In this document: in pieces, positions 47,580-62,793 of the stretch
Layout of the letters: each line of letters begins with the position of its first letter
Position numbering within the stretch: position 1 is the first letter of the stretch
NCBI RefSeq assembly: GCF_011046735.1
Contig: NZ_CP049258.1
Span: 1,630,001-1,694,000 of the forward strand
DNA: 64,000 nt
DNA from: Nordella sp. HKS 07
GTDB lineage: Bacteria; Pseudomonadota; Alphaproteobacteria; Rhizobiales; Aestuariivirgaceae
Reading direction: 5' to 3'
The notes under the pieces: model-generated
What the model saw: the letters and a program-made list of their open reading frames with translations, nothing else
What the model was told of the DNA's origin: nothing
The model's database searches: none
Program-made: the position numbers and the translations under genes

Positions 47580-48719
47580 TCAGGCCCTTGCCTTCAGCTC
47601 CGCCGCCGCCATCGCATAGCCGCCCGCCGCTCCGTCGATGAAGTGGAAATGATCGCGCGCGAAAGGATTGGGCACGAAGCAGGTCATCAGCGCTGAATCC
47701 TGGCGGTGCAGGCCATAGCGGCAGAGGCCCGCCTCATAGGCTTGGGCGAGGCGCTGCTCGAGGCGCGTGATCAGCGTCGGGGCAATGTCGACCGTGAGCT
47801 TGAGCCCGTCGTCGAACTTGCGGAAATCGGTGTTCTGCGCGACATCGTTCTTATACACCGCCGCATCGAAGCGGCCGATCTTCAGGTTGGCGCGGAAAAT
47901 CAGCCAGCCGAGCAGGCTTTCGGCGAGGATATGAAGCTTGCGCCGCCATAGCGATCCGTGGCGCGTGGCGAGCGCCTCGTAATTGAGACCCTTGGGCGGA
48001 AAGCCGAATTTGCGCGGTACCGGCAGGCCGGCCTGGTCCTCGCCATCGACGATGGCGATGATATCGTCGATGAGCCTGGTGAAATCGGCGCTGCGTTCAA
48101 CGCCGACCGGCGTGACGATGAGAGAAACGATCTCGCCATTCTTTGCCGCGATGGGATCCCAGCGGCAGGAGAGGCCGGAGAGATCGGGACGCGCGCCCGC
48201 CGTGGCGGCCGGCACACGATAGTCGCCCGCCTTCATCCGCGCCTCCGCCCAGCTGGCGCCGCCGCCCGCGAACATCGCATAGGTAACCTCGGAGCTGGCG
48301 CGAAAGCGCGCGACCCGCACATCATGGCCCTCGGCCCTGATATCGCGCATCGGCACGATGGCGGCGCGCAGATCGAGCCCCAGATCGTCCTTGACCCAGG
48401 CCTGCGTGAGGGAGAGCGCCTCGCTTGTCTCGGGCACCGCATTCTCGGGCACCGCCAGCATGGCGCCATCACCGCCGAAGACGAAGGGGATCTTGCGCGT
48501 CCCCACCGCATTCAGCACCGCCGAGATCACGCTGGCGCCCGCCATGTTGACGGCCTTGTATTCGCCGCGCGCGATCGCCTGCGTCGAGCTGACGATGTCG
48601 GCGGTTGCCAGTGACCACGTGCCGGGCAAGGGCTGATAGTTTTTCGCATCGGCGACGCCCGAGAATTTTTCGAAGGTCGGCAACGCTTCGAAGAAATCGT
48701 CCTGCCCCATATCGGTCAT
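47580..48719 (-). CDS. DUF3095 protein with class III cyclase-like motifs
   Basis: A 379-residue DUF3095 member. ATADIVSSTQAI (D41) and FVFGGDGAML (D84) have the order and the 43-residue spacing of the two metal-binding aspartates of class III adenylate/guanylate cyclases (44 in the cyclase at 51.6-53.3 kb). The C-terminal half (about 250-379) is a separate conserved region of unknown function. Activity is not established. An ATG three codons in (48710) is equally possible. It is convergent with the PP2C gene and divergent from the glycosyltransferase. Confidence 0.75.
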   Translation of the reverse strand: MTDMGQDDFFEALPTFEKFSGVADAKNYQPLPGTWSLATADIVSSTQAIARGEYKAVNMAGASVISAVLNAVGTRKIPFVFGGDGAMLAVPENAVPETSEALSLTQAWVKDDLGLDLRAAIVPMRDIRAEGHDVRVARFRASSEVTYAMFAGGGASWAEARMKAGDYRVPAATAGARPDLSGLSCRWDPIAAKNGEIVSLIVTPVGVERSADFTRLIDDIIAIVDGEDQAGLPVPRKFGFPPKGLNYEALATRHGSLWRRKLHILAESLLGWLIFRANLKIGRFDAAVYKNDVAQNTDFRKFDDGLKLTVDIAPTLITRLEQRLAQAYEAGLCRYGLHRQDSALMTCFVPNPFARDHFHFIDGAAGGYAMAAAELKARA

Positions 48720-48805
48720 CCGGAAAAACTAGCATGGCAGCCTAGCCATGGCGACAACGCGATCCCGGATTGACGCCTGCACGCGCCGCCGCCATAGGCA
48801 AAGGG

Positions 48806-49891
48806 GTGAGGATCGCCTTCTATGCCCCGCTCAAAGCGCCCGACCATCCGGTTCCCTCGGGGGACCGTCAGATGGCGCGGCTCATCATGAAGGCGCTCGG
48901 CCAGGCGGGCTTCGAGGTGGACCTCGCCAGCGGCTTGCGCGCCTTCACGCCAGATCCCGCGCCGGAAGCTTTCGCTGTCCTGCTTGATGCCGCCGAAGCG
49001 GAGAAGGCACGCCTGAGGCAGGCCTGGCAGGACGGTCAAAGGCCCGATCTCTGGTTCACCTATCATCCCTATTACAAGGCACCCGATCTTCTTGGGCCTG
49101 AGCTCGCGCGTCATTTCGACATTCCCTATGTCACCGCCGAAGCTTCCTACGCGCCCAAGCGCGACCGCCAGGGCTGGGCACAGCGCCAGGCACTGATCCG
49201 CGACGCAGTCGGCCTCGCTCGCATCAATATCTGCTTCACTGAGCGCGACCGCGCCGGACTGGAAAAGTCCGTGCCCGAGGCGCGCTTCGCGGCCCTTCCA
49301 CCTTTCATTGATACGCAGGCCTATGGTGATGGTTGCGCCGCCGCACCGCCCGCACACCTGATGGCGGTCGCGATGATGCGCAAGGGCGACAAATTTGCGA
49401 GCTTCACCATGCTCGCCGAGGCGCTCGGGCTGCTGCTCGATCTGCCTTGGCGGCTCACAATTCTAGGCGACGGGCCGATGCGGGCGGAAACCATGGCGCT
49501 TTTCGATCGAATCCCGTCCGATCGCCTCGACTGGCGAGGTGAGTTCAGGCCCGAAGCCGTGCCTCAATGCCTGCGCCAGGGCGGCATCTATGCCTGGCCG
49601 GGCACCGGCGAGGCCTATGGCCTCGCTTATCTCGAGGCGCAGGCCTCAGGCCTGCCGGTGGTGGCGCAATCGACCGCCGGCGTTCCGGCCGTCGTCCGCG
49701 ACGGCGTGACTGGTATCCTGACGCCCGAAGGCGATGTCGCCGCCTATGCGGCGGCCGTCCGCGTATTGCTGACGGACGACGCCAGACGCGCGGCCTATGG
49801 CCGGGCGGCCCGCGATTTCGTGCTCGCCGAGCGCTCGCTCACCAAGGCCTCCGAGCGCCTGGCCGCGATCCTGAACGAGGCGATGACATGA
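48806..49891 (+). CDS. Glycosyltransferase, GT4/GT-B fold
   Basis: A 361-residue transferase from the GTG at 48806. VRIAFYAPLKAPDHPVPSGDRQMARLIMKAL is the N-terminal GT-B strand and loop. GEAYGLAYLEAQASGLPVVAQSTAGVPAVVRDGVTG is the C-terminal nucleotide-sugar site with the EX7E-like arrangement. A TTG twelve codons upstream is the only alternative. No membrane helix, so cytoplasmic. Donor and acceptor unknown. Its stop overlaps the deacetylase start. Confidence 0.85.
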   Translation: MRIAFYAPLKAPDHPVPSGDRQMARLIMKALGQAGFEVDLASGLRAFTPDPAPEAFAVLLDAAEAEKARLRQAWQDGQRPDLWFTYHPYYKAPDLLGPELARHFDIPYVTAEASYAPKRDRQGWAQRQALIRDAVGLARINICFTERDRAGLEKSVPEARFAALPPFIDTQAYGDGCAAAPPAHLMAVAMMRKGDKFASFTMLAEALGLLLDLPWRLTILGDGPMRAETMALFDRIPSDRLDWRGEFRPEAVPQCLRQGGIYAWPGTGEAYGLAYLEAQASGLPVVAQSTAGVPAVVRDGVTGILTPEGDVAAYAAAVRVLLTDDARRAAYGRAARDFVLAERSLTKASERLAAILNEAMT

Positions 49892-50646
49892 TGAACGAAG
49901 ATCTCTGGCGGCCGCTCCGTGACGAACTTCAGGAGTGGCGCGCCGCCGGCCGCACCGCCTCGCTGTGGCTGCGCGATGATGATGCGGTGGCACCGACGCC
50001 GGCACTCGACCGGCTGATCGGCCTCGCGCGCGATTATGCCGTGCCCGTGGCGCTGGCGATCATCCCGGTCAGTACCGGGCCTGATCTGGCCCACCGTCTC
50101 GCCCAGGAAACACTTATCCATCCCGTCGTCCATGGCTGGTCGCATGCCAATCACGCGCCCCCGTCCGAGAAGAAGCAGGAACTGGGCGATGACCGGCCGC
50201 GCCAGGCGGTCAAGGATGATCTCACAAGAGGACTTGCGCGCCTGAGCGAGTTCTATCGCGACAGGCTCACCAGCTTGCTGGTGCCGCCCTGGAATCGTAT
50301 CGATCCGGCGCTCCTCGATGATCTGCCGATGCTCGGCTACACTGGCCTGTCGGCTTTCGGACACAAGCTCGCCTCGACGGAGCACCTCACCGTCGTCAAC
50401 ACGCATATCGACATCGTCGATTCGCGCGCCGGCAATCGCTGTCGCGATCATGGCGTGCTGATCGCAGACCTCGCCCGGGAACTTGCGGAGGCGCGCGCTG
50501 CCGGTGGCGCGGCACCCGTCGGCGTGCTGAGCCATCATCTGGTGAGCGACGACGACGCTTTCCGCTTCCTGAGCGATCTCTTCGACGTCACCGCCCGAAG
50601 CGGCGTGGTGCGCTGGCGAACGCCGGCAGAGCTTCTCGAGCGATAG
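49888..50646 (+). CDS. Polysaccharide deacetylase-like protein
   Basis: A 252-residue protein with a glycoside-hydrolase/deacetylase barrel. SLWLRDDDAV gives the catalytic/metal acids, HPVVHGWSHANHAP the two metal histidines, and LLVPPWNRIDPALL the next family motif. It has no signal peptide, so it acts inside the cell, perhaps on a lipid- or nucleotide-linked glycan made with the coupled glycosyltransferase (4-bp overlap). Confidence 0.8.
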   Translation: MMNEDLWRPLRDELQEWRAAGRTASLWLRDDDAVAPTPALDRLIGLARDYAVPVALAIIPVSTGPDLAHRLAQETLIHPVVHGWSHANHAPPSEKKQELGDDRPRQAVKDDLTRGLARLSEFYRDRLTSLLVPPWNRIDPALLDDLPMLGYTGLSAFGHKLASTEHLTVVNTHIDIVDSRAGNRCRDHGVLIADLARELAEARAAGGAAPVGVLSHHLVSDDDAFRFLSDLFDVTARSGVVRWRTPAELLER

Positions 50647-50647
50647 C

Positions 50648-50769
50648 GCATCGGACCGAAAAGCTTGTGACCGGGCCTGACCCGGCCATCGCAGCGGTTT
50701 TCGGATAATCCGATGCGCAATACAAGAGATGGAGCGCCGACGCGATTCCATCGCAACGTCCGGCGCTCT
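50648..50769. repeat. Palindromic element A, copy 3
   Basis: GCATCGG/CCGATGC long-range pair and the 3' stem AGCGCCG.CG/CG.CCGGCGCT. The middle hairpin now reads GACCGGG...CCCGGCC, a changed sequence that still pairs. It lies between the convergent deacetylase and MBL genes. Confidence 0.75.
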
Positions 50770-50774
50770 GGCCC

Positions 50775-51635
50775 TTACAGATCCACGACCAGGCCCTGAC
50801 GCGCCACGAAGGCGCCGGCGAATGCCGCCTTGGCCTCCTCGCCGATCACGTCCAGTTCGTCGTCATTGCGCAGCGGCGAATGGTGGAAGATGGCGAGTTG
50901 CTTGGCCTTGGCCGCCTTGCACAGGCGCACGCCTTCCTCCCAGCTCGAATGGCCGAAACCGCGATAGCGTGGCATCTCCTCGTCGGTGAAGGCGGCGTCA
51001 TAGATGACGAGATCGGCATGGTCGATGAGCTTCAGCACATTCTGGTCGAGCTTGCCGGGCGCATGCTCGGTGTCGGTGATATAGCAGGCGCACCTGCCCT
51101 GGAATTCGACGCGATAGCCGACGGCGGCATTGGGATGGTTGAGGCTGGCGGTCCTGAGCACGATGCCGTCATGGGGATTGAGCACATCGCCCGGTTTGAA
51201 ATCCTTGTAATCGACATCGGCGATGAAGATCTCCGGGGCGATCGGAAAATACGGCGCCTTCATGATTCCCGAGATCATTTCATGCGTCGTCATCACCCCG
51301 GCGAGATGGCCGGACCATATGCGGATCTTGTTGCTGCCGCGATAGAACGGCAGGAAGAACGGAATGCCGAAAATATGATCCCAATGGCAATGGGAGAAGA
51401 ACATGTCGAGGCGCGTCACGCCTTCGCGTTCGAATTCCTGGCCGGCACGCTTCAGGCCCGACCCCGCATCGAACATCAGGACATGCTCGCCGCAGCGCAT
51501 TTCGACGCAGGACGAATCACCCCCATAACGCGTGACTTCCGACCCCGACACCGGAATGCTACCCCTGGCGCCCCAAAACTTTACCGTAAATTCACTCTTT
51601 TCTTTCAACGACTTGACCCCTCGCTCGGCGGGCAT
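50775..51635 (-). CDS. MBL-fold metallo-hydrolase
   Basis: A 286-residue metallo-beta-lactamase fold hydrolase. VKFWGARGSIPVSG and RYGGDSSCVEMR are the start of one cytoplasmic phosphodiesterase-like subgroup. The zinc motif is SHCHWDH (H82, H84, D86, H87); YITDTEH and FHHSP supply further ligands. It lies 11 bp behind the cyclase gene in one operon, so hydrolysis of a cyclic nucleotide is a sensible but unproven guess. Confidence 0.85.
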   Translation of the reverse strand: MPAERGVKSLKEKSEFTVKFWGARGSIPVSGSEVTRYGGDSSCVEMRCGEHVLMFDAGSGLKRAGQEFEREGVTRLDMFFSHCHWDHIFGIPFFLPFYRGSNKIRIWSGHLAGVMTTHEMISGIMKAPYFPIAPEIFIADVDYKDFKPGDVLNPHDGIVLRTASLNHPNAAVGYRVEFQGRCACYITDTEHAPGKLDQNVLKLIDHADLVIYDAAFTDEEMPRYRGFGHSSWEEGVRLCKAAKAKQLAIFHHSPLRNDDELDVIGEEAKAAFAGAFVARQGLVVDL

Positions 51636-51646
51636 CGTAGCATTTC

Positions 51647-53344
51647 CTACGGCTTATGCGACTCTAAAGCGGGCAATTGCGTCGCCCGCTTCACCATGAC
51701 CACTTCGAGCGTTCCGGCCCTTCCCCGGATCTCCAGGCTTCGGGTTTCGAGGTCTCCCGGCTCGGTCTCCGCCTTGTCGAGGACCACCCGGGAAATGATC
51801 GCCTGCACATTGAGCTCCTTGGCTGCGGCCTCCAGCCGGCTGGCGGTGTTGACGGTATCGCCGAGCGCGGTGACGCCGCGCGCCGTGGCACTTTTGCCCG
51901 CCGCCCCGATGCGCCCCAGTATGGCGGCACCCGAATGAAGACCGATGCCCATCTCGAGCGCGCCGCGTAGTTCCTCGTGCAGGCTCTGATTCAGGGCGTC
52001 GAGCACGCCGCCCATGGCCCTGGCCGCGGCCAGGGCCTCGCGCGCTCCGGCCTTCGCCGTCTTGTCCATGCCGAATATCGCCATGATGCCGTCGCCCATG
52101 AACTTGTCGACATAGCCTCCTGTATCGACGATGACTTCGCTCATGCGTCCCAGATACTGGTTGAGCAGGAAAACGACGTCATAGGAGAGACGCTGCTGCG
52201 ACAGCTTGGTGAAGCCCCGCAGATCGCAGAACATCACGGTGACCTCCTGCTCGACGCCCCAGAAATATTTGTCGACGAGCCCATCCACCGCGTCGGCCGT
52301 CGCCGCCGGCAGGAGCGTGGTGATGACGAGATCGGTCTCGGGGCGAAACTGGCAGGCGAGCCTGACATTGGCCGGAGCGCCGACCCGCTTCAGCACTTTC
52401 AGCTCATTGGCATCCGGCGGCGGCTCGTTCGCCGGGCCTTCGATGACCCTGATTCGGCAGGTCGAGCAGCGTGCCCGCCCGCCGCACACCGAGGCATGCG
52501 GAATGTTGTTGAGGCGGCTCATTTCGAGGACGGACAGGCCGCGCCGCGCCGAGACACGCTGTCCACCCGTATAGGTGATGGTGATCGTGTGCCGGTACCG
52601 ATCGAGGAGCCCGAGGCCGATGCGCGACGCCACGATCAGGGCGAGCAGGCCCAGATAGAGGTAGAATTCATAGTCGAGCAGGCCATGCAGGAAGTTGAAC
52701 TGCTCCTGCGACATTGGCGGCTCGAAATCCGAAACATAGCGGATGGCACGCCCGGCGGATGCAAATCCCGCGAAGCCAAGCGCCGGTATAAGGGTCGCCA
52801 GCGCTACCCACAGCCATCTGAGCCGGCGATACCAGAACTTGAACTCGAGCCAGTGATGCAGGCCGATCAGACCGTGCACCCAGACGAGCAGCATCAGCGC
52901 CGCCTGTCGCCAGGCTTCGGCCGGCCACATGACCCACAAAGCGTAGGTATAGTTGTCATCGACTCCGGCATAGATATGAGCGCCGCGCATGCCGGTGACA
53001 TGGCGCAACAGCAATAGCGGGATGAGCAGGCCGAAACCCAGCTGCACCCATTCATGCGGCCTGATTCTCAGGCTGCGGCGCCTGATGAAGACCACGATCC
53101 CGAGCACGAAGTGGACGAGGAACGAGGCCAGCAGGATGATCGTGCCGGGAAGGCTCCGGGTAAGGGCGATGCGCCAGAGGCGCACCTCTTCCATCATCTC
53201 GATCGACAGCAGCCCAACCGCATGATTGAGGAAATGCGTCGCCGCGAATGTGAACAGAACGAGGCCGGTCGCCAGCCTGAGCTGGCGCAATGTCACGCGT
53301 GGAAGGGCGGTACGGTAGGGCAAGGCAACATCTGGAGAAGTCAT
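51647..53344 (-). CDS. Membrane adenylate/guanylate cyclase with 2Fe-2S domain
   Basis: A 565-residue signalling enzyme in three parts. Residues 1-245 hold about six helices with many histidines (H37, H41, H78, H114, H157, H163) in a cytochrome-b-like arrangement, so heme binding is possible. Residues 252-345 are a ferredoxin domain with C287-X5-C293-X2-C296 and C331. Residues 362-530 are a class III cyclase domain with metal aspartates D374 (FCDLRGFTKL) and D418 (KFMGDGIMAIFG) and ALGDTVNTASRLE. It presumably makes a cyclic nucleotide in response to redox state. ATP or GTP specificity not decided. Confidence 0.88.
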   Translation of the reverse strand: MTSPDVALPYRTALPRVTLRQLRLATGLVLFTFAATHFLNHAVGLLSIEMMEEVRLWRIALTRSLPGTIILLASFLVHFVLGIVVFIRRRSLRIRPHEWVQLGFGLLIPLLLLRHVTGMRGAHIYAGVDDNYTYALWVMWPAEAWRQAALMLLVWVHGLIGLHHWLEFKFWYRRLRWLWVALATLIPALGFAGFASAGRAIRYVSDFEPPMSQEQFNFLHGLLDYEFYLYLGLLALIVASRIGLGLLDRYRHTITITYTGGQRVSARRGLSVLEMSRLNNIPHASVCGGRARCSTCRIRVIEGPANEPPPDANELKVLKRVGAPANVRLACQFRPETDLVITTLLPAATADAVDGLVDKYFWGVEQEVTVMFCDLRGFTKLSQQRLSYDVVFLLNQYLGRMSEVIVDTGGYVDKFMGDGIMAIFGMDKTAKAGAREALAAARAMGGVLDALNQSLHEELRGALEMGIGLHSGAAILGRIGAAGKSATARGVTALGDTVNTASRLEAAAKELNVQAIISRVVLDKAETEPGDLETRSLEIRGRAGTLEVVMVKRATQLPALESHKP

Positions 53345-53358
53345 GCCGGCCTCCGCTT

Positions 53359-53470
53359 AGATCACGATGAGTTTGGATTGAGTCAATCCAAACTCATAAA
53401 CGTGATCGATTCGATATTCAGCGCGGGATACTTGCGAAAAACCGGTACCCACTTTTTCGCATCCTGCGCT
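53359..53470. repeat. Composite palindromic element B, copy 4
   Basis: The hairpin here is TGAGTTTGGATTGA and its exact complement separated by one base (53368-53396), unlike copies 1 and 3. The outer pair is AGCGCGGGAT...ATCCTGCGCT. Flanks (AGATCACGAT, ACGTGATCG, AAAAACCGGTACCCACTTTT) match the other copies. Confidence 0.75.
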
Positions 53471-53473
53471 ACA

Positions 53474-53572
53474 GCATCGGACCGAAAAGTGCGAAGCGGT
53501 TTTCAGATAATCCGATGCGCAAATCAAAGAGTTAGAGCGCCGGACCGATTCCATGTGAGCGTCCGGCGCTCT
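53474..53572. repeat. Palindromic element A, copy 4 (short form)
   Basis: GCATCGG...CCGATGC and the 3' stem AGAGCGCCGGA/TCCGGCGCTCT are perfect, but the middle hairpin has been cleanly deleted. It follows element B by 3 bp; together they fill the gap between the cyclase and the cNMP-binding gene. Confidence 0.75.
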
Positions 53573-53583
53573 AGCGCGGGCTT

Positions 53584-54048
53584 CTAGTTTGCCTTTCGCC
53601 TGAGATCGCTGCGCGCCTCGCTGAGCTCCGCCGTCGTGTGGCTCAGGCGGTCGGCGAGCACCCGCATGATTTCGACGGCCATTTCCGGAAACTCGGCCAG
53701 CAGCTTGAGGAAATGCTCCTTGCGGATGCGCAGGGTTTCGAGCGGCGCGTTGGCCCTGACGGTAGCGGTGCGCGAGACGTCGCACAGGATGGCGATCTCT
53801 CCGACGATCGAATTCGGCTCCAAGGTCGCCACCTTGATCTCGCCGCTCTGCGAATTGACCAGCACATCGGCCGAACCGGCGAGAACCACATAGGCGGCAT
53901 CGCCCGGATCACCCTGCTTGAAGAGTGTCTGTCCGGCGTCGAAACTGACGCGGTCCGAAGTAAAGGCCAGGAGCTTGAGCTTGCCTGGCGCCACGCCCGA
54001 AAAGAGCGGTACGCGCCGCAACAGCTCCACCTCATCTTTGAGCTGCAT
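53584..54048 (-). CDS. Stand-alone cyclic-nucleotide-binding domain protein
   Basis: A 154-residue protein consisting of one Crp-type cNMP-binding domain and a short helical tail, with no helix-turn-helix. The phosphate-binding cassette GEIAILCDVSRTATVRA keeps the Glu and the Arg-Thr pair needed to hold the cyclic phosphate. It lies 34 bp behind the degenerate ABC gene and 240 bp ahead of the cyclase, all on the minus strand. It probably acts by protein contact rather than by binding DNA. Confidence 0.88.
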   Translation of the reverse strand: MQLKDEVELLRRVPLFSGVAPGKLKLLAFTSDRVSFDAGQTLFKQGDPGDAAYVVLAGSADVLVNSQSGEIKVATLEPNSIVGEIAILCDVSRTATVRANAPLETLRIRKEHFLKLLAEFPEMAVEIMRVLADRLSHTTAELSEARSDLRRKAN

Positions 54049-54082
54049 CGCTCAATACTCCTATATCTGGTCCAACCATATA

Positions 54083-56812
54083 CTACGACGCCAGAAGCCC
54101 TGCAAAAACGCCCTTCTTGGACATGAGCTGGTCATAATCGCCGTCCTCCACCGCGGTCCCCCGGTCGAGCACCACCACCCGGTCGAAAAGCCGCGCCAGA
54201 TTGGGATTGCTGAGCACCCAGACGACCGCCGGCTTGCGGCCGTCGCGCGCCGCCTCGCCCAGGACCGAGCGCACCAGCTGCTCCTGGGTGCGCTGCTCGA
54301 CCGAGGACAGCGCCTTGTTGAGGATGATGTAATCGCCCCGCTTGAGGAGCGCACGGGCGACATGCAGCTTCTGGCGCTGCACCGAGGTGAGGCGGCGGCC
54401 GCCGACACCGACATTGAATTCGAGCCCCACCCTGATAACGTCCCGGCTGACATCCAGGTCATCCAGCACCGAGCGGACAATGCCGCGGATGCGCTCGGCG
54501 CCGTCGGCATGGCGGTGGCCGACGCGGCCAAACAGCACGTTGTCGAGAATGCTGGCGGATTTGTTGTAGCTCTCGACATCGTAAGGCTCGATCGCCCCTT
54601 TCAGGCTGTCCGGCAGATTGTCGTGGAAGGCCGCGCGCGCCGCCACGATGCGATCCATCATCTCCTGATCGAGAAGACCGAAGCGATAACGCGGCTCGAC
54701 ATAGGAGAAAGCCAGTTTCATCATCCGGCTGCGGTCCGCCTCGGCGACCTGGGCGAAGGGCTTGTCCTGCAGCTTCTGCAGCAGCGCCTGATAATCGGGG
54801 ATCTCATCCGCCGTCATAAAGATCAGTTGCTGGAAGAACGGATGATCGGGCGGCAGGTCGCGGAACAATTCGACGGCGTTGCGCGCGATCTCGACGCCCA
54901 TGCGATAGAGCGCCTCATCCAGGCCCGACTGCGCCAGCACCGAGCGGAAATAGGCGTTGGACGCGAGATTGACATTGGACAGCTCGGGTCCCACCGGCGT
55001 GCCGAACAGGAGGTTTTCGCCGACCGTCGCCTCCGCATTGTAGAGTGCGGGATCGAAGGAGGTGACGAGGCTCGCCAGTCCTTCCTCCTCGAGGCGTGTC
55101 CGCAATGCCTTGCGCGCCGACACGATATGCTCGGGGATAGCGGGATGTAGCGTCTCGTCGACGGAGGCCCTGAGCCCCAGATCGAAGACGTCATCCGAGA
55201 AATGCACCGCGTCGAGCACCTGCTCGATGGCGGCGAGCAGATCATCCGGGCCTTTGGCGCCGATCGTCTCGTAGTCGATCCAGTCGCTGCGCAGGTCGTG
55301 ATCGGGGTTTCCGGCGCGCCCGGCTTCGTCCATCTCCCAGGCGCGTTGCTTCGCCAGATCACCTTCATAGGTGGCTTGGCGCATCGGAAAATGCTTCAGC
55401 ACATAGACCAGGTTCTCCAGAATGGTGCCCTGGAAGAGATGGGCGTCGGCTGCCGCATAGGCCGTGCGCCGCCCCGTCACGGCTTCGGGAAGCGCCTGGA
55501 GATCGGTGCCGTTGATGGCGACGCGGCCCTGCTCCGGCCATACGAGGCGCACCATGGCGTCGGCCAGTGCCTCGGTGCCGCCGCCCGCCGTACCGATGAC
55601 GGCGACATTCTCGCCGGGTCTTATGTCGAGCGTGATGTTCTCGAGGAGTCTCGCGCCGCTGTCGTCGCTGGCGGAGAAATTGGTGATGGAGATCGGCGTC
55701 GTGATCGGCGCCACCGGCTTGCCGTTCAGTTCCTGGACTTCCGCCTCGATCAACTGGTCGACCTGAAACTGCTCATAGACCTGGGCGTATTTGACCTGAA
55801 CGTCGAGACGCTGCTGATCCCAGTCGATCAGGTCCTTGATCGGGCTCGGCAGATCCTTGTAGGCCGAAATCACCGCGACGAGCTGACCGATATCGAGCTG
55901 GCCCCTCAGCGCCAGATAGCCGCCGATCGCGTAGAACAGGAAGGGCGTGACCTGGGCGAGGAAATTATTGAGGAACTTGACGAAGAATTTCCACTGGTAG
56001 AGATCATAGCGGATCTTGAAGATGCGGCCGAGGCGGTTCGCGATGTCGGCGCGCTCGTAGTTCGACGTGTCATGGACATGGATCGAGGAAATGCCGTCGA
56101 CGATCTCGCCGACGCGTCCGGCAAGCTGGCGCGCGGTGAGCTGGCGCTCCTTGCCGAGCTTGATGAGGCGGCGCCGCATTTTCGGGATGACGACGCCCTG
56201 GATGCCGACCATGAAGGCGGCGAGGAAGCCGAGCCAGAAATTCTGCAGGATGATGAAGAACAGCGCGGTCGCCGCCTGAAGACCGAGAAATGCCGGCTGC
56301 ACGAAAGCATCGCCGATGAAGCCGCCCAGCGGCTCGACCTCGTCCTTCACCATGGTCGCGACTTCGGAGGCCTTTACGCGCTTGAAGACATTCGGCGGGA
56401 AGCGCAGCACGCGGTCGACGAGTTGGAAACGCAGGCGGCGCAGCATGCGCTCGCCGAGCCGGCCTTTGAACGTGTTGATATAGAGCTTGAAGAGGCCGTT
56501 GATGATGACGAGGACGAGAAAACCGCCCGACAGCGCCATCAGCATTTGAAAGCGGTCGAGGCTGAATCCCTCGAAGAGGACGAAGGGCTTCGCCGTCGAT
56601 ATCCAGTCCGGCAGATCGATGACCAGGCGCAGGAAGGTCTGGTGCGCGTCTGGGGTGGCGAAGCCGTCGCCCTGGATCGGTCCGTTGACGATCTGCTTGG
56701 GCAGATCGAGCGACATGTAGTAGGTCGGCATCGACAGCAGGATGATGAACAGGATCCAAATCTGCTGCCGGCTCGTATGCCTCCAGATATATTTGGCGAG
56801 ATTCTTATCCAT
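54083..56812 (-). CDS. ABC-exporter-like protein with degenerate, enlarged nucleotide-binding region
   Basis: A 909-residue protein. Residues 1-345 look like an exporter membrane domain (helices near 15-35, 90-115, 178-210, 283-302). The region from 370 starts as an NBD, but Walker A is GTAGGGTE (407-414), lacking the lysine. The signature is LTSVQ (about 808), Walker B reads YIILNKAL without Asp-Glu, and the H-loop is LSNP. About 400 residues separate Walker A from the signature (about 100 is normal). In them the exporter motif that follows the Q-loop recurs three times: TILENLVY (463), TVGENLLFG (597), SILDNVLFG (755). ATP hydrolysis looks impossible. Confidence 0.85.
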   Translation of the reverse strand: MDKNLAKYIWRHTSRQQIWILFIILLSMPTYYMSLDLPKQIVNGPIQGDGFATPDAHQTFLRLVIDLPDWISTAKPFVLFEGFSLDRFQMLMALSGGFLVLVIINGLFKLYINTFKGRLGERMLRRLRFQLVDRVLRFPPNVFKRVKASEVATMVKDEVEPLGGFIGDAFVQPAFLGLQAATALFFIILQNFWLGFLAAFMVGIQGVVIPKMRRRLIKLGKERQLTARQLAGRVGEIVDGISSIHVHDTSNYERADIANRLGRIFKIRYDLYQWKFFVKFLNNFLAQVTPFLFYAIGGYLALRGQLDIGQLVAVISAYKDLPSPIKDLIDWDQQRLDVQVKYAQVYEQFQVDQLIEAEVQELNGKPVAPITTPISITNFSASDDSGARLLENITLDIRPGENVAVIGTAGGGTEALADAMVRLVWPEQGRVAINGTDLQALPEAVTGRRTAYAAADAHLFQGTILENLVYVLKHFPMRQATYEGDLAKQRAWEMDEAGRAGNPDHDLRSDWIDYETIGAKGPDDLLAAIEQVLDAVHFSDDVFDLGLRASVDETLHPAIPEHIVSARKALRTRLEEEGLASLVTSFDPALYNAEATVGENLLFGTPVGPELSNVNLASNAYFRSVLAQSGLDEALYRMGVEIARNAVELFRDLPPDHPFFQQLIFMTADEIPDYQALLQKLQDKPFAQVAEADRSRMMKLAFSYVEPRYRFGLLDQEMMDRIVAARAAFHDNLPDSLKGAIEPYDVESYNKSASILDNVLFGRVGHRHADGAERIRGIVRSVLDDLDVSRDVIRVGLEFNVGVGGRRLTSVQRQKLHVARALLKRGDYIILNKALSSVEQRTQEQLVRSVLGEAARDGRKPAVVWVLSNPNLARLFDRVVVLDRGTAVEDGDYDQLMSKKGVFAGLLAS

Positions 56813-56933
56813 GCGCGACGAAGCGCCCGGGGCGCCGAGGCAGATCGAATGATTCGCTAGAATTAAACATGACCACTCGCCTCAGCATACAAAATCACCT
56901 CTGCCGCGGATACTGGCATAAATTCCTTTTAAA

Positions 56934-58055
56934 TCAAGGTTCGGCCACATGCCGGCGCAGGATGCGCGCGGTTTCGGCGGCGCCGTCGAGATTGAGCACC
57001 ACGGCACTTCGCTGCGGCATCGTCGCGATCGTCCGGCTCAGGCTTTCGGGCGTGAGCATGTCTTCACGCAGCATCGCCGCGAGTTCCAGCGCCTCGAGGC
57101 GCCTGGCCCGGTCGGTCTGCTCGGTCTCGCCGCCCGCCGCGAAAGGAATGAGGATAGCCGGACACTGCGCCCGGAGAATATCGCAGACCGTGTTGTAGCC
57201 GGCCTGCGAGATCGACAGGCTGGCACGCGCCAGCAGGCCCGGAAAGTCGCTGCGGAAGGTTTCGAGCGCGACGCCGCGCGGGAGGCGTGCCGTAAGCTCC
57301 TGTTTCTCCGCCGCGGGGAAGTTGGGCCCGGTGATGATGCACCAACTGGGCCATCGCCCGAGAAACTGAGGCGCCACCGCGATGGCCGTCTCGATGAGCT
57401 TGCGGCCAACCACGCCGCCTCCAGCCGAGACCACGACATCGAACCGGTCGGCCGATATCGCCGCCTCGCCGGCGACGAGCCCGGTATAGGCTATGCGCTC
57501 GGCAATCTCGCCAGCCTCGGGGAAAGTTTCATCGAGGCGCGCGAAGGCCGGATCGCCATGGACGAGAACGAGATCGAAGTAGTCACGCAACACGCCGAGC
57601 GTTTCCTCGGCGCGGCCGGCTTTGCGATTCTCCTGCAATATGTCGCGCACCGAGCTGGCGATGAGTGGCGGCCGCTTTGCCGCGCGCGCATGGCGAAGCA
57701 GCGGCAGCAATTCGAAGCGCATCTGGCGCCGGCCGAAGGGAAAGGCCTCGATGACCAGTGCATCGGGCCGGATCGCATCGAATTCCGCGATCAGGCGGTC
57801 GCGCCTCGCTGCCTTGAAGGCGTCATCGATTTCGTTGCCGTCGTCGTCGATGAGCGCGGAGAAAGACATGTCGCGCGCCCGGATAGGCGGCAGCTGGACA
57901 AGCCTGACCCCGGATGGCGGAAAGCCCGAGACAGGCGCCCCGCCGCTGAGCAGCGTCACATCGTCTCCGGCCCTGGCGAGGGCCGCCGATATACGGCTTA
58001 CCCGGGCCAGATGCCCGATGCCGAGCAGATGCTGCACATAGATGAGCACCTTCAT
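56934..58055 (-). CDS. GT28/MurG-like glycosyltransferase
   Basis: A 373-residue GT-B protein. VLIYVQHLLGIGHLARVSRISAALARAGDDVTLLSGG is the N-terminal domain start; VVVSAGGGVVGRKLIE and ISQAGYNTVCDILRAQCPAILIPFAAGGETEQTDRARRLE form the nucleotide-sugar site. The product is unknown. It is related to the protein encoded at 59298-60509 and overlaps the GT4 gene between them by 4 bp. Confidence 0.83.
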   Translation of the reverse strand: MKVLIYVQHLLGIGHLARVSRISAALARAGDDVTLLSGGAPVSGFPPSGVRLVQLPPIRARDMSFSALIDDDGNEIDDAFKAARRDRLIAEFDAIRPDALVIEAFPFGRRQMRFELLPLLRHARAAKRPPLIASSVRDILQENRKAGRAEETLGVLRDYFDLVLVHGDPAFARLDETFPEAGEIAERIAYTGLVAGEAAISADRFDVVVSAGGGVVGRKLIETAIAVAPQFLGRWPSWCIITGPNFPAAEKQELTARLPRGVALETFRSDFPGLLARASLSISQAGYNTVCDILRAQCPAILIPFAAGGETEQTDRARRLEALELAAMLREDMLTPESLSRTIATMPQRSAVVLNLDGAAETARILRRHVAEP

Positions 58056-59287
58056 GCGTGGCCCCGCGCCGCACGAAAGAGCTGGGTGAGTTCGCCAATG
58101 CTGTTGGTATGATCGAAATGCCCGCGCACCCGCGTCTCGGCGGCCGCGCCGAGCCGCCGGCGCAGCTGCGGATCGCCGATGGCCCGCGTCAGGGCGGCGC
58201 TGAGCGCCCGCGGGTCTTCAGGCGGGACGAGGAGCCCGTCGACACCGTCGCTCAGAAGCTCGGGTACGCCTGAGACCGTCGTTGATATGCAGGCAAGCCC
58301 TTGGCTCGACGCCTCGACCAGCACATTGGGCAGGCCGTCGCGGTCGCCGTCGCGGGCGATGCGGCAGGGCAGCACGAAGAGATCGCTTTGCCGGTACTGC
58401 GCCAGCACATCTTCCTGGGCGCGCGAACCGAGCCATTCCATGCGCGCCGCAAGGCCAAGCGCCTCGGCCTTGGCCTTGAGCTCGCTCAATTTTTCGCCGC
58501 CGCCGATATGGACGAAACGCCAGGCGAGATCCTTCGGCAGCAGCGCCAGGGCGTCGATGAGAATGTCATAGCCCTTCTTTTCGACCGCGCGGCCGACGCT
58601 GAGGAGAAGCACCGGATCCTTCGCATCCGTGCCGTCGCGCGCCGGACGCGCTCCGTCGAAGTGAGCGAAACGGGAAAGATCGAGGCCGTGATAACTCAGA
58701 TGGACGCGCGACGGATCGGGGCTCAGGCTTTGCAGTCTGTCGAAGCCGGCTTTCGTGCAGGTCACCACCCAGCGCGCCTGGCCGAGCTTGGCGCTGAGAT
58801 CCCAGTCGGGCGACGTCCAGATGTCCTTGGCATGCGCCGAGCAGCTCCAGCCGATATCGAGGATGAGGCTTGCATAGGCTGTGACCGAGCCCGGCGTGTG
58901 GATGAAATGCGCATGGAGCCAGTCGACGTCCCGGGGAAATTCGGCGGCGAGCACCAGCGCCTGGCCGAAGCGTCGCCAGCGGTTGCGCGTGAAGTCGCGC
59001 TTGAGATCGGCCAGGAAGGTCTGGCGCAAGCGTTTGTAATGCGCAAACCGGCGGGCCTTCCACCAGGAGCGGATGACGCGCCAAGGCTCGTCGTGGAGAT
59101 ATTCCGGCAGGTAGCGCACCGGCGCCTTGATCTCGTCATGGACCGGATGGCGCTTCTTGTCGGTGGGATGGCGCATCGAGACGAGATAAAGCTCATGGCC
59201 GGCGCGCTCCAGTCCGAGCAGCTCCTGCGCGATGAAGGTCTCCGACAGGCGCGGATAGCCCTTGAGGACGATGACGATCTTCGTCAT
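58052..59287 (-). CDS. Glycosyltransferase family 4
   Basis: A 411-residue GT4 protein: IVLKGYPRLSETFIAQELLGLERAGHEL at the N terminus. LLSVGRAVEKKGYDILIDAL and EKLSELKAKAEALGL begin the C-terminal domain; PNVLVEASSQGLACISTTVSGVPELLSDGVDGLLVPPED is the donor site with the EX7E motif replaced by E/S spacing. Typical of exopolysaccharide or lipid-linked glycan synthesis. Confidence 0.88.
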   Translation of the reverse strand: MTKIVIVLKGYPRLSETFIAQELLGLERAGHELYLVSMRHPTDKKRHPVHDEIKAPVRYLPEYLHDEPWRVIRSWWKARRFAHYKRLRQTFLADLKRDFTRNRWRRFGQALVLAAEFPRDVDWLHAHFIHTPGSVTAYASLILDIGWSCSAHAKDIWTSPDWDLSAKLGQARWVVTCTKAGFDRLQSLSPDPSRVHLSYHGLDLSRFAHFDGARPARDGTDAKDPVLLLSVGRAVEKKGYDILIDALALLPKDLAWRFVHIGGGEKLSELKAKAEALGLAARMEWLGSRAQEDVLAQYRQSDLFVLPCRIARDGDRDGLPNVLVEASSQGLACISTTVSGVPELLSDGVDGLLVPPEDPRALSAALTRAIGDPQLRRRLGAAAETRVRGHFDHTNSIGELTQLFRAARGHA

Positions 59288-59297
59288 GGAGGCGAAA

Positions 59298-60509
59298 TCA
59301 GTTGCTGCTTTCGACGACGGTAAGCCGCTTTTGCGAACCGGGTTCGAGCCACTCGCCGACCAGATCGGTGATCTTTTCGAGCCCGTCGAGCTTGAGCTTG
59401 GAGGTCACATGCGAGGGCGGCGCCCGGTCGGGCAGACGCTTGAGGGCTTGGGCCAGCCGTGCCGGGTCCTCGGCTTCCGCCGGTAACAGCATGTCGATCA
59501 CGCCGAGCTCGGCCGCTCGCTTGGCCCGGATCAGCTGCTCCTCGCGCGGCGTGACCCTGGGTACGATCAGGGCCGGCTTGTCGAAGGACAGGATCTCGCA
59601 GAACGTGTTGTAGCCGCCCATGCTGACGACGGCGCGCGCCCCGGCGATGAGATTTTCCATCCGGTTGTCGAACTCGATGATCTCGACATGCGGGATGGCG
59701 GAACCCTTCTTGACGAGCTTGCGCCGCTTGCGCGCCGGCATGAAGGGGCCGAGCACGATGAGGAGCTTGTGCGTGAGCGACGGGTCATGGTGATAGGCAT
59801 CGAAGATATTGTGAATGAGATCGGCTCCGTCGCCGCCCCCGCCCGTCGTCGCCAGGATGTAATTGCCCTCGACCTCGCGCATCGGCACATCGGCCAGGGA
59901 GATATAGCGCTGCAGGAAGCCCACATAGTGCATGCGCGAACGTACTGCCGGGGAAACATCGAAACCGGTCAGCGGATCGTAGAAATCCTCCGGCCCATAG
60001 ACCCAGATCGAATCGTAGAACATCCCGATCTTGCGCAGCACGTCGCGCTTCGCCCATTCCGCCTTGAGAAGATGCGGCGCGTCCATGACCTCGCGCAGGC
60101 CGAGCACCAGGGTGGTCCCGTGCGTCTTGAGATAGGAGAGCGTGTCCTCGAGCTCGCCGCGCAGGCCAAGAGGCTCCTTGTCGACGATGAAGAGGTCGGG
60201 CTGGAAGGATTCCGCCGTGTGCCGGATGATCGACTCGCGCATTTCCAGCGTTTCATGCAGATCGGTGTGCCGGTCGATCGACGTATAGTCGCCGTTGTGG
60301 AGCTTGATGATCGAGGGGATCTTCACAAAGTCGACGCGTACGCGGTAATCGAATGCGCCGGCGATGGTCGAGCCCGAGATGATGAGGACGCTCAAGCCGC
60401 GGTAGTTCTCGACGAGTGAATGTGCAATCGTTCGGCACCGTCTCAGATGTCCTAGCCCGAACGTATCGTGGCTGTACATGAGAATGCGCGCGTGTTCCAG
60501 CCGCCGCAT
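59298..60509 (-). CDS. GT28-like glycosyltransferase
   Basis: A 403-residue GT-B protein from the ATG at 60509 (AGGGGAC upstream; the open frame begins 27 codons earlier without an SD). RILMYSHDTFGLGHLRRCRTIAHSLV, ILATTGGGGDGADLIHNIFDAY and VVSMGGYNTFCEILSFDKPALIVPRVTPREEQLIRAKRA match the family. It is the first gene of the glycosyltransferase-ABC-cNMP-binding operon and resembles the GT28-like protein two genes downstream, so a duplication is likely. Confidence 0.83.
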   Translation of the reverse strand: MRRLEHARILMYSHDTFGLGHLRRCRTIAHSLVENYRGLSVLIISGSTIAGAFDYRVRVDFVKIPSIIKLHNGDYTSIDRHTDLHETLEMRESIIRHTAESFQPDLFIVDKEPLGLRGELEDTLSYLKTHGTTLVLGLREVMDAPHLLKAEWAKRDVLRKIGMFYDSIWVYGPEDFYDPLTGFDVSPAVRSRMHYVGFLQRYISLADVPMREVEGNYILATTGGGGDGADLIHNIFDAYHHDPSLTHKLLIVLGPFMPARKRRKLVKKGSAIPHVEIIEFDNRMENLIAGARAVVSMGGYNTFCEILSFDKPALIVPRVTPREEQLIRAKRAAELGVIDMLLPAEAEDPARLAQALKRLPDRAPPSHVTSKLKLDGLEKITDLVGEWLEPGSQKRLTVVESSN

Positions 60510-60616: not shown

Positions 60617-61798
60617 CTATTTGTACGGATCGGCCGCATCACGCAGTCCGTCTCCGAGGAAATTGAAGGCCAGAATGACGATGATCACCGGCAGGACCGG
60701 CAGCATGAGCCAGGGATAGAGCGCCACCACATTGATGTTGGTGGCTTCCTGGAGCAGCACCCCCCAGCTGGTGATGGGGGGCCGCAAGCCAAGCCCGAGG
60801 AAGCTCAATGCCGTTTCGCCCAGAATCATGCCGGGAATGGATATGGTGGCCGAGGCGATCAAATGCGACATGAATCCGGGGACCAGATGCCGGCCGATGA
60901 TGCGGCTGCCCTTGGCGCCCATCAGCTGTGCCGCGAGGACGTAGTCTTCCTCGCGTAAAGCCAGCAATTTGGATCTCACCGCGCGTGCGAGCCCGGTCCA
61001 ATCGAGAAGCCCGAGGATGAAGGTGATGCCGAAATAGACGAGCAGTGGCGACCAGGTGACCGGCATAATCGCGGCCAGTGCCATCCATAGCGGGATGCTG
61101 GGCAGCGATTGCAGGACTTCGATGATACGCTGCGTAATCAGATCGACGACGCCGCCCTTATAGCCGGCGATACCGCCGATGACAATGCCGAGGATGAAGC
61201 TCACCGCCACGCCGAGAAGGCCGATGGTGAGCGAGATGCGCGCGCCATAGATGATGCGCGAAAGCATGTCGCGTCCGAGCCGGTCGGTGCCGAGCAGGAA
61301 GAATTCGCCGTCCTTGGCCGGGCAGACGAGATGGAGGTTGCTCTCGACCAGCCCCCAGAATTTGTAAGTATCGCCGCGGCAGAAGAAGCGCAGCCTCTGA
61401 GGGTCATCCTTGTTGTCGGTATATTCGCGCCTCAGATTGTCCATGTTGAGCCGCATCGTGCGGCCATAGACGAAGGGTCCGATGAACTCCCCGTTATGGA
61501 ACAGACGCACCCGCTGCGGCGGCGCGTAGATATTGTCCATATTGCGGGTGGCGAGATTATAGGGCGCCAGGAACTCCGCGATGATGATCATGCCGTAAAG
61601 GGCGGTGAGGATGATACCGGAGATCAGAGCGAGGCGGTGGCGCTTGAACTTCCACCACATCAGCCGCCATTGCGAGGCGAGGAAGACCTTCTTCTGCTGG
61701 TCGCTCATCGCCTCGCCATAGGCGGGATCGAAGGGCGCCTTGGAAACATAGTGCCGGAGCGGCTGGCCGGACGGCGGAAGCGGCGTCGCGTCGTTCAT
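60617..61798 (-). CDS. Oligopeptide-type ABC permease, DppC/OppC family, with large loop insertion
   Basis: A 393-residue inner-membrane permease. After the first helix (ALISGIILTALYGMIIIAEFLAPY) there is a periplasmic insertion of about 80 residues (roughly 85-165), then LLGTDRLGRDMLSRIIYGARISL, the usual continuation. EAA loop: LREEDYVLAAQLMGAKGSRIIGRHLVPGFMSHLI. The last residues NFLGDGLRDAADPYK are a family hallmark. It overlaps the DppB-type gene by 4 bp. Confidence 0.92.
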   Translation of the reverse strand: MNDATPLPPSGQPLRHYVSKAPFDPAYGEAMSDQQKKVFLASQWRLMWWKFKRHRLALISGIILTALYGMIIIAEFLAPYNLATRNMDNIYAPPQRVRLFHNGEFIGPFVYGRTMRLNMDNLRREYTDNKDDPQRLRFFCRGDTYKFWGLVESNLHLVCPAKDGEFFLLGTDRLGRDMLSRIIYGARISLTIGLLGVAVSFILGIVIGGIAGYKGGVVDLITQRIIEVLQSLPSIPLWMALAAIMPVTWSPLLVYFGITFILGLLDWTGLARAVRSKLLALREEDYVLAAQLMGAKGSRIIGRHLVPGFMSHLIASATISIPGMILGETALSFLGLGLRPPITSWGVLLQEATNINVVALYPWLMLPVLPVIIVILAFNFLGDGLRDAADPYK

Positions 61799-62793
61799 TT
61801 CGTGCTTCCACCCTGGAGCCGGATGCGCGGATCGAGCACGGCGAGCGCCAGATCCGAGATGAGAACGCCGATTACGGTGAGGAAGGCGAGGAACATCAGG
61901 AAGGAGCCGGCGAGATACATGTCCTGGCTCTTCAGCGCCCGGATCAGCAAGGGTCCGGTGGTTTCGAGCGACAGCACGATTGCGGTGATCTCGGCGCCCG
62001 AGATGATGGCCGGCAGGATCGAGCCGATATCGGCGATGAAGAAGTTGAGCGCCATACGCAACGGGTATTTGATCAGCGCCTTGAACGGATGCAGGCCCTT
62101 GGCGCGCGCCGTGACCACATACTGCTTCTGCAATTCATCGAGCAGATTGGCGCGCAGTCGCCGCACCATGCCGGCGGTGCCCGCCGTGCCGATGATGATC
62201 ACCGGAATCCACAGATGTTCCAGGATCGACTTGAACTTGGCCCAGCTCATCGGCTCCGACATGAATTGCGGGTCCATGAGATGGCCGATCGACGTACCGA
62301 ACCACACATTGGCCAGATACATGAAGACCAGCGCCATCATGAAGTTGGGCACCGCGATGCCGAGCAGCCCGAGGAAGGTCAGCCCGTAATCGCCCCAGCT
62401 ATATTGGTGCGTCGCCGAATAAATGCCGATCGGGAAGGCGATGAGCCAGGTGAACAGGATGGTGATGAAGGACACCATGATGGTGAGCCACATCCGGTCG
62501 CCCACCACATCGGTGACCGGCATCTGATATTCGAAGGAATAGCCGAAATCGCCGGTGAGCATGCCGCCGACCCAGTGGAAGTAGCGGATGATCGGCGGCT
62601 TGTCGAAGCCATACTCCTTGCGCAATGCCTCGATCTCCTCGGCATTGACGCTCTCGCCCTGGGCCTGGAGCTCGGCGACATAGCTCTCGAAGTAATCGCC
62701 GGGCGGCAATTCGATGATGGTGAAGACCAGCGCTGATATGATCGCCAGCGTCGGCACCATCATGAAGATGCGCCAGATAATGTAGCGCGCCAT
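61795..62793 (-). CDS. Oligopeptide-type ABC permease, DppB/OppB family
   Basis: A 332-residue permease. YIIWRIFMMVPTLAIISALVFTIIELPPGD is helix 1 and the family motif. A longer than usual periplasmic segment follows (about 31-85). EAA loop: LQKQYVVTARAKGLHPFKALIKYPLRMAL. It starts 2 bp after the binding-protein gene. Confidence 0.93.
   Translation of the reverse strand: MARYIIWRIFMMVPTLAIISALVFTIIELPPGDYFESYVAELQAQGESVNAEEIEALRKEYGFDKPPIIRYFHWVGGMLTGDFGYSFEYQMPVTDVVGDRMWLTIMVSFITILFTWLIAFPIGIYSATHQYSWGDYGLTFLGLLGIAVPNFMMALVFMYLANVWFGTSIGHLMDPQFMSEPMSWAKFKSILEHLWIPVIIIGTAGTAGMVRRLRANLLDELQKQYVVTARAKGLHPFKALIKYPLRMALNFFIADIGSILPAIISGAEITAIVLSLETTGPLLIRALKSQDMYLAGSFLMFLAFLTVIGVLISDLALAVLDPRIRLQGGSTK

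Follow-up and report, generated by a model that had tools for sequence, protein, structure and literature searches.

A cyclic-nucleotide-binding protein paired with an ATPase-degenerate ABC exporter-like protein in a predicted surface polysaccharide locus of Nordella sp. HKS 07

What might a membrane protein do that has the predicted fold of an ATP-binding cassette (ABC) exporter, has lost the motifs of ATP hydrolysis, and is encoded next to a cyclic-nucleotide-binding protein amid genes for glycan enzymes? This question is raised by a locus of Nordella sp. HKS 07, the genome of which is a single 7.18-Mb contig (NZ_CP049258.1); the stretch analysed here, hereafter the window, covers 64,000 nucleotides of it (positions 1,630,001 to 1,694,000). 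An earlier note on this DNA, made from its letters, had proposed a glycan assembly and export locus controlled by cyclic nucleotides and built around a dead ABC protein. Judged from its genes, the locus is a relative of the S. meliloti region reported to be required for the surface polysaccharide PPP (phazolicin-protecting polysaccharide). The reading that is favoured here, to which a probability of about 0.6 is given when it is taken as a whole, is that cAMP bound to the stand-alone cyclic-nucleotide-binding domain protein (CNBD) sets the state of the non-hydrolysing ABC-fold protein (pseudo-ABC), which would control the assembly or export of a PPP-type polysaccharide.

Relatives were sought in 199 genomes of the window's taxonomic order, 240 of its class and a phylum sample of 299, and were compared gene by gene in 140 loci. 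Forty of these are order loci, picked non-randomly from 79 places for similarity and spread, 20 are class loci picked likewise, and 80 are "named" loci, which are the best 80 of at least 574 confirmed matches and are biased to Rhizobiaceae. All gene counts per locus hold within the stretches read, from which some genes may be cut off.

The degenerate ABC protein and its partner

In the window protein, the Walker A motif reads GTAGGGTE, the signature LTSVQ and Walker B ILNKA, so that the Walker A GK(S/T), the LSGGQ and the Walker B D-E of an active ABC exporter are all missing. The earlier description of a dead ABC protein was right, and it applies to the whole family, since none of the 140 relatives carries a Walker A GK(S/T). 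The Walker A lysine is kept in 12 of them, never followed by S or T, which overturned the statement that it is absent from every relative (true of the first 41), and it occurs together with the Walker B D-E in a single one (L161). The exporter-type membrane domain (PF00664) is present, and in the structural model (pLDDT 79.2, pTM 0.72, with pLDDT below 50 at residues 158-176 and 323-354) it is made up of six long helices, of which the sixth is broken. Foldseek matched this model to TmrAB, MsbA and PCAT1 with E values of about 1e-15 to 1e-14 and TM-scores of 0.32-0.56, the much greater length of the query being one cause of these modest values. In comparison with these type IV exporters, the predicted fold and the membrane domain are thus alike, whereas Walker A, Walker B and signature are degenerate and the Q-loop/helical unit is threefold. 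More precisely, the nucleotide-binding domain (NBD) contains three copies of a Q-loop-type unit, made of a motif like ENLLFG followed by a helical part, and copies 2 and 3 are the stretch that splits the NBD; profile comparison relates copies 2 and 3 with 98.6% probability, 1 and 3 with 96.5%, and 1 and 2 with 88.6%. Within the family, mean pairwise identity amounts to 64% in the membrane domain versus 40-46% in the NBD parts.

The pseudo-ABC family defined by this analysis is present in 69 of the 199 order genomes, 79 of the 240 class genomes and 26 of the 299 genomes of the phylum sample, where one partial match (residues 15-338) is labelled as belonging to the same phylum, not to the same class. 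Its spread is patchy, and 262 plasmid records carry the gene, often annotated as "ABC transporter ATP-binding protein"; a phage origin was discarded, as the unit is absent from 50,697 phage records at E<=1e-20. Among the named loci, the nearest are those of Rhizobiales bacterium Y(2018) and Taklimakanibacter lacteus, whose ABC proteins are 88% and 87% identical to that of the window, respectively. Besides, frames of 863-1016 residues in four genomes (G117, G174, G196 and G668; family f42) match only residues ~523-897 of the ABC profile, and may be relatives in which the N-terminal part ahead of the repeated Q-loop units has diverged.

In every one of the 140 loci, the CNBD gene comes directly after the ABC gene on the same strand, at a median distance of 72.5 bases and a maximum of 329 when measured from profile-match end to profile-match end, a pairing that exceeds chance. 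In 10 of 144 loci (L035, L038, L156, L157, L169 and L171-L175), the two lie in one open frame without intervening stop, and three of these fused frames were also detected at E 5.5e-22 or lower. Such an arrangement suggests that ABC and CNBD form one functional unit, in which the separate proteins would be in physical contact. The phosphate-binding cassette of the cyclic nucleotide (cNMP) pocket has its Glu in 136 and its Arg in 138 of 140 CNBD proteins, Glu84 and Arg93 in the window, and cAMP is the probable ligand. One S. meliloti record assigns the protein to the Crp/Fnr family; a CRP/FNR-type regulator was ruled out, because the 154 residues of the window CNBD contain no C-terminal helix-turn-helix or other DNA-binding domain, PF00027 being the sole Pfam match at E<=0.01. 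Two genomes, G197 and G084, have two ABC-CNBD copies each. In G197, the CNBD of the copy that accompanies glycan genes (L069) lacks the pocket Arg, and the other copy (L045) has an intact pocket, with a metallo-beta-lactamase-fold (MBL) hydrolase gene and a cyclase gene close by.

Glycan genes and the S. meliloti relative

The four glycosyltransferases (GT4a, GT28b, GT4c and GT28d) and the CE4-type deacetylase (DAC) travel with the ABC gene. Among the 199 order genomes, ABC and GT28d are both found in 64, ABC only in 5 and GT28d only in 2, while the corresponding numbers for ABC and DAC are 62, 7 and 5; Fisher tests on such co-occurrence counts ignore phylogeny, and in some genomes (G039 and G018, for instance) ABC and the glycan-enzyme gene are on separate contigs. 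At the level of single loci, GT28d lies within the stretch in 31/40 order, 68/80 named and 10/20 class loci. The gene order varies by lineage, the glycosyltransferases being co-directional or divergent, and the gene set mostly stays together. In Azospirillum sp. B510 (L157), which belongs to another order, a fused ABC-CNBD gene is followed by the importer, the four glycosyltransferases and the deacetylase. Between its GT4a and GT28b genes, this locus has a gene of the histidine phosphatase family, and proteins of similar size are encoded there in a few others. DUF3095 was recorded in 5/40 order, 16/80 named and 0/20 class loci.

The deacetylase has no Pfam match at E<=0.01. Its AlphaFold2 model (pLDDT 94.8) matches CE4/NodB deacetylases in Foldseek, where the top row is a virus turret protein, and the residues DDD30-32, H82/H86, PPWNR133-137, D175 and H216 are invariant in 18 of 18 sequences; motifs and modelled fold therefore both point to a CE4/NodB deacetylase.

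The relative in S. meliloti 1021 occupies 22 kb of pSymB (NC_003078, 822580-844984) and comprises counterparts, at 43-82% identity, of 15 genes from the window locus and the DNA that follows it, namely GT4a, DAC, MBL, DUF3095, a cyclase, a polysaccharide lyase, the importer ATPase, its solute-binding protein (SBP), OppB, OppC, GT28d, GT4c, GT28b, ABC and CNBD. The same gene set hence stands on one contiguous stretch in both, and the 11 genes from the cyclase to CNBD have an identical order. The two differ in that GT4a, DAC, MBL and DUF3095 are at the opposite end of the run in S. meliloti, and in that the CyaC-type cyclase of the window is an extra, no CyaC following CNBD on pSymB. The pSymB genes were placed at smb21252-smb21271 by counting from the anchors SMb21247 (deacetylase), SMb21249 (sulfotransferase) and SM_b21272 (LacI regulator), by which GT4a is smb21252, GT28d smb21265, ABC about 21269 and CNBD about 21270.

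According to excerpts from Travin et al. 2023 (PMC10128002), nine genes in smb21252-smb21271 are required for PPP, an uncharacterised surface polysaccharide proposed to be a barrier to phazolicin; mutants of smb21252 and smb21265 are ~8-fold more sensitive to this compound, their minimal inhibitory concentration (MIC) falling from 1.47 to 0.18. The same excerpts report that the adenylate cyclase gene cyaA was depleted in the phazolicin screen and that A. tumefaciens orthologues of PPP genes emerged in a pyocyanin screen. In the same line, excerpts of another study state that seven of the nine PPP genes are up-regulated under Myxococcus attack (PMC10315480). The claim that no described system has this composition was thus too strong, since the relative in S. 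meliloti has already been studied as a polysaccharide locus.

Some peculiarities of the S. meliloti records may be mentioned here. In that of strain 1021 (L179/L180), the ABC match (841723-844432) exceeds that of strain 2011 by one base and lies in two frames, and the cyclase match (828488-829764) is in two pieces, which reflects either errors in the sequence or genuine frameshifts. Matches split in two were likewise obtained for both DUF3095 and GT28b in strain RCAM1750.

Control by cyclic nucleotides and competing explanations

The class III cyclase next to CNBD in the window resembles S. meliloti CyaC (SMc01818), a quinone-responsive diheme/[2Fe-2S] adenylate cyclase (PMC10463352), in its His-bearing anchor, its [2Fe-2S] domain and the types of its class III catalytic residues. 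The candidate heme ligands H37, H41, H78, H115 and H157 of the anchor and the cysteines C287, C293, C296 and C331 are invariant in 10 of 10 sequences, and the catalytic residues are K414, N499, R503, D374 and D418, all of which fits a CyaC-type redox adenylate cyclase. The gene neighbours are different, being a TetR-type and a predicted LysR-type regulator in S. meliloti (PMC10463352) instead of ABC and CNBD. As regards the MBL hydrolase, its HCHWDH His/Asp and further metal residues are conserved in 19 of 19 sequences. Its scores against RNase Z and cyclic-nucleotide phosphodiesterase profiles fell far below the cut-offs (48.9 bits versus 400 for NF041851), so that it does not match the class II phosphodiesterase family, and Pfam assigns it no phosphodiesterase family.

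Both genes are associated with the ABC gene in part of the genomes. Among the 199 order genomes, the MBL gene occurs in 64, of which 55 also have ABC and 40 have it within 5 kb of ABC, and CyaC-type proteins occur in 57, of which 48 also have ABC. Further, among 14 ABC-bearing genomes chosen for good assembly (1 to ~20 contigs), one of which is that of the window, 6 have a class III cyclase no more than 5 kb from ABC, versus 0.24 expected (P ~3e-8 when random placement is assumed), or 5 of 13 without the window's own. In two genomes, G028 and G138, the neighbour of ABC is, apart from weaker candidates, the sole class III cyclase of the genome at E<=1e-10. Another of the 14, G000, has 44 class III cyclase domains at this threshold, compared with 1-9 in the 13 others. 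Within the stretches read, a cyclase was found in 26/40 order, 32/80 named and 2/20 class loci, and MBL in 20/40, 43/80 and 0/20. The low counts outside the order indicate that the core does not include a cNMP source of its own, and the two genes are considered as accessory, mostly within the window's taxonomic order. The joint travel of all components put forward in the earlier note consequently stands for ABC, CNBD and glycosyltransferases, and for cyclase and MBL only as accessories.

Where an obligate, sometimes fused cNMP receptor is combined with a non-hydrolysing ABC protein in a polysaccharide locus, the simplest reading is that the membrane protein has its state set by the nucleotide and not by hydrolysis of ATP. 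The four glycosyltransferases and the deacetylase would build a surface glycan, pieces of which would probably be trimmed and recovered by the lyase and the oligopeptide-type importer where these are present. Sources of cAMP might be the CyaC-type redox cyclase, the second cyclase encoded in the locus or any other cyclase of the organism, and the MBL hydrolase might remove it. The binding of cAMP to CNBD, which would belong to an exporter-fold protein unable to use ATP normally, either as a subunit or, in some lineages, by fusion, would change the degenerate NBD, whereby glycan assembly or export would be gated or scaffolded at the membrane; at CyaC-adjacent loci, the respiratory redox state would thereby be linked to the glycan.

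The best-known post-translational control of bacterial polysaccharide export by a second messenger is that by cyclic di-GMP, which is read by a membrane subunit of the polysaccharide machine in BcsA-PilZ, PelD and Alg44. The likeness to these systems concerns the way of working, and no homology is claimed, the receptor being here of the cNMP type and the membrane protein of ABC fold. An ABC-exporter fold acting as a regulator, as proposed for the pseudo-ABC, is also known from the sulfonylurea receptor SUR (ABCC8/9), and SUR2B is among the matches of the ABC profile; unlike the pseudo-ABC, SUR keeps its nucleotide sites and partners a K+ channel. While the polysaccharide locus, CyaC and all of the enzyme families had been described before, no account of a pseudo-ABC family with a triplicated unit and invariant coupling to a cNMP receptor was found in the open-licence literature, searched mostly at listing level. 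One may go further and propose a new class of machine, in which a dead ABC exporter with a triplicated Q-loop unit, coupled obligately to a cAMP receptor, gates the assembly or export of a surface polysaccharide post-translationally in about a third of alphaproteobacteria, with CyaC linking redox state to envelope protection in some of them; this joint claim is tentative, its odds being slightly short of even. If true, the joining of a cAMP-type receptor to an ATPase-dead ABC protein would represent a distinct way of controlling a polysaccharide. The locus also supplies candidate genes for how cAMP affects the polysaccharide that protects S. meliloti from phazolicin.

Several observations weigh against control of a PPP-type polysaccharide by cAMP through CNBD and pseudo-ABC. 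GT28d is missing from the stretch in 9/40 order, 12/80 named and 10/20 class loci, and the ABC protein from each of the 6 further genomes sampled in the family to which the window belongs. Of the 57 genomes with CyaC, only 15 have it within 5 kb of ABC, and the scarcity of cyclase and MBL genes beyond the order, given above, points the same way. Catalytic residues are lost in 3 of 10 CyaC-like neighbours (L033, L034 and L036), and two CNBD copies linked to glycosyltransferases in two related genomes (L069 and L070) lack the pocket Arg, which together argue against a single fixed circuit. In S. meliloti, the effect of cyaA, a different cyclase, on the MIC is small (1.47 to 0.74), and the excerpted text on PPP names neither the dead ABC nor the cNMP-binding protein of the cluster (PMC10128002).

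The competing explanations have to account for the same genes. The ABC-like protein could be a glycan or glycolipid transporter without ATP of its own, whether passive, gradient-driven or using a borrowed ATPase, CNBD being structural or binding another ligand. The exporter fold, the well conserved membrane domain and the persistence beside glycosyltransferases of the two CNBD copies without pocket Arg are in its favour, as is the lack of any flippase family among 16 locus proteins searched against Pfam. It accounts poorly, however, for the near-invariant Arg and Glu of the cNMP pocket and for cyclases near ABC above expectation, and S. meliloti has a "lipopolysaccharide biosynthesis protein" and a sugar transferase nearby, so that this explanation, although the strongest of the competitors, is held to be unlikely. 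Less probable again is that the ABC-adjacent cyclases feed a cell-wide Clr-type regulator of polysaccharide transcription, CNBD being one of many cAMP sinks. S. meliloti CyaC does interact with Clr and with the regulator CycR (PMC10463352), and the neighbouring polysaccharide region nodP2-smb21248 contains genes activated by Clr (PMC5498481); yet gene numbers starting with smb2125, smb2126 or smb2127 are absent from the main text of the latter paper, and a CNBD in which no DNA-binding domain was found, encoded by a gene tied to and sometimes fused with that of a membrane ABC protein, fits such a role badly.

Slightly more improbable still is that the pseudo-ABC and CNBD control the oligopeptide-type importer, and thereby uptake of glycan or wall fragments instead of glycan export. 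OppB, OppC, SBP and ATPase genes are found alongside in the window as in many of the loci (ATPase in 68/80 and SBP in 57/80 named loci), they stand directly upstream of the glycosyltransferases in S. meliloti and R. leguminosarum, and the ATPase profile equals GT28d in frequency in the named and class sets; SBP, on the other hand, is found in 11/40 order loci versus 31/40 for GT28d, and in 2/20 class loci versus 10/20. A polysaccharide lyase as core part was rejected on its presence in 2/40 order, 6/80 named and 0/20 class loci, counts which are low partly because many stretches stop before its usual place. Finally, a Pycsar-like anti-phage system, in which a cyclase signals to a cNMP-binding membrane effector, is very improbable: the cyclase and CNBD score against the PycC and PycTIR models of PADLOC, but these matches span the cyclase and CNBD domains only, no TIR or other effector domain was found, ABC has no PADLOC match at E<=1e-5, and the unit is tied to glycan genes. 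Membership of Pycsar, with a cyclase and a dedicated effector, was accordingly rejected. Control of the polysaccharide by cAMP through CNBD and the pseudo-ABC is therefore retained as the preferred reading.

Layout of the locus

The genes are collected in Table 1.

Table 1. Genes of the locus in the window (positions counted from the first letter of the window)
Feature	Position	Strand	Basis and remarks
DUF3095 protein	47580..48719	-	PF11294, 439 bits; 54% identity to copy in S. meliloti 1021 locus
GT4a, glycosyltransferase family 4	48770..49891	+	Pfam GT4-type domain; 55% identity in S. meliloti
DAC, predicted intracellular CE4/NodB-type deacetylase	49888..50646	+	start overlaps GT4a stop; motifs, AlphaFold2 model, Foldseek
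MBL-fold metallohydrolase, putative (cyclic) phosphodiesterase	50775..51635	-	PF12706 (Lactamase_B_2)
Predicted CyaC-type membrane adenylate cyclase	51647..53344	-	Guanylate_cyc and Fer2; anchor with conserved His
CNBD, stand-alone cyclic-nucleotide-binding protein, 154 aa	53584..54048	-	PF00027 (cNMP_binding) alone
Pseudo-ABC, 909 aa, exporter-type membrane domain and degenerate NBD	54083..56812	-	PF00664 ABC_membrane and partial ABC_tran
GT28b, GT28/MurG-like glycosyltransferase	56934..58055	-	PF04101 (Glyco_tran_28_C)
GT4c, EpsE-like glycosyltransferase family 4	58052..59287	-	Pfam and further profile search
GT28d, GT28-type transferase	59298..60509	-	Glyco_tran_28_C; start possibly GTG 60590; 72% identity in S. 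meliloti
OppC-type permease, locus importer	60617..61798	-	PF00528/PF12911; 76% identity in S. meliloti
OppB-type permease	61795..62793	-	PF00528/PF19300; 82% identity in S. meliloti
Family-5 solute-binding protein	62796..64000, continues past window end	-	PF00496 on in-window part

The ten open reading frames listed in the earlier note all exist at their positions, the spacings of the minus-strand genes are as it gave them (a 10-bp gap at 59287/59298, a 4-bp overlap at 58052-58055, a 121-bp gap at 56812/56934 and a 34-bp gap at 54048/54083), and its gene families agree with Pfam or, for the deacetylase, with model and motifs. The genes of its interval 47580-60509 are right, but the end was set too early, since the same-strand run reaches 62793 and goes on beyond the window end; the upstream importer, the polysaccharide lyase and the second class III cyclase had been overlooked. 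Beyond the window end follow a double ATPase, the lyase and this second cyclase, up to about window position 68963. The lyase (PF14099), at about window position 66667-67827 (L154:6668-7828), is flanked by the second cyclase and the importer ATPase and may hint at a uronate-containing glycan, with which nucleotide-sugar dehydrogenases nearby would also agree; in S. meliloti it has an equivalent place. On the other side of the locus, at 43827-46725, a GntR-type regulator, a SIS-domain sugar isomerase and a NagA-like deacetylase, recognised by eye from the translations, would make up an amino-sugar catabolic set.

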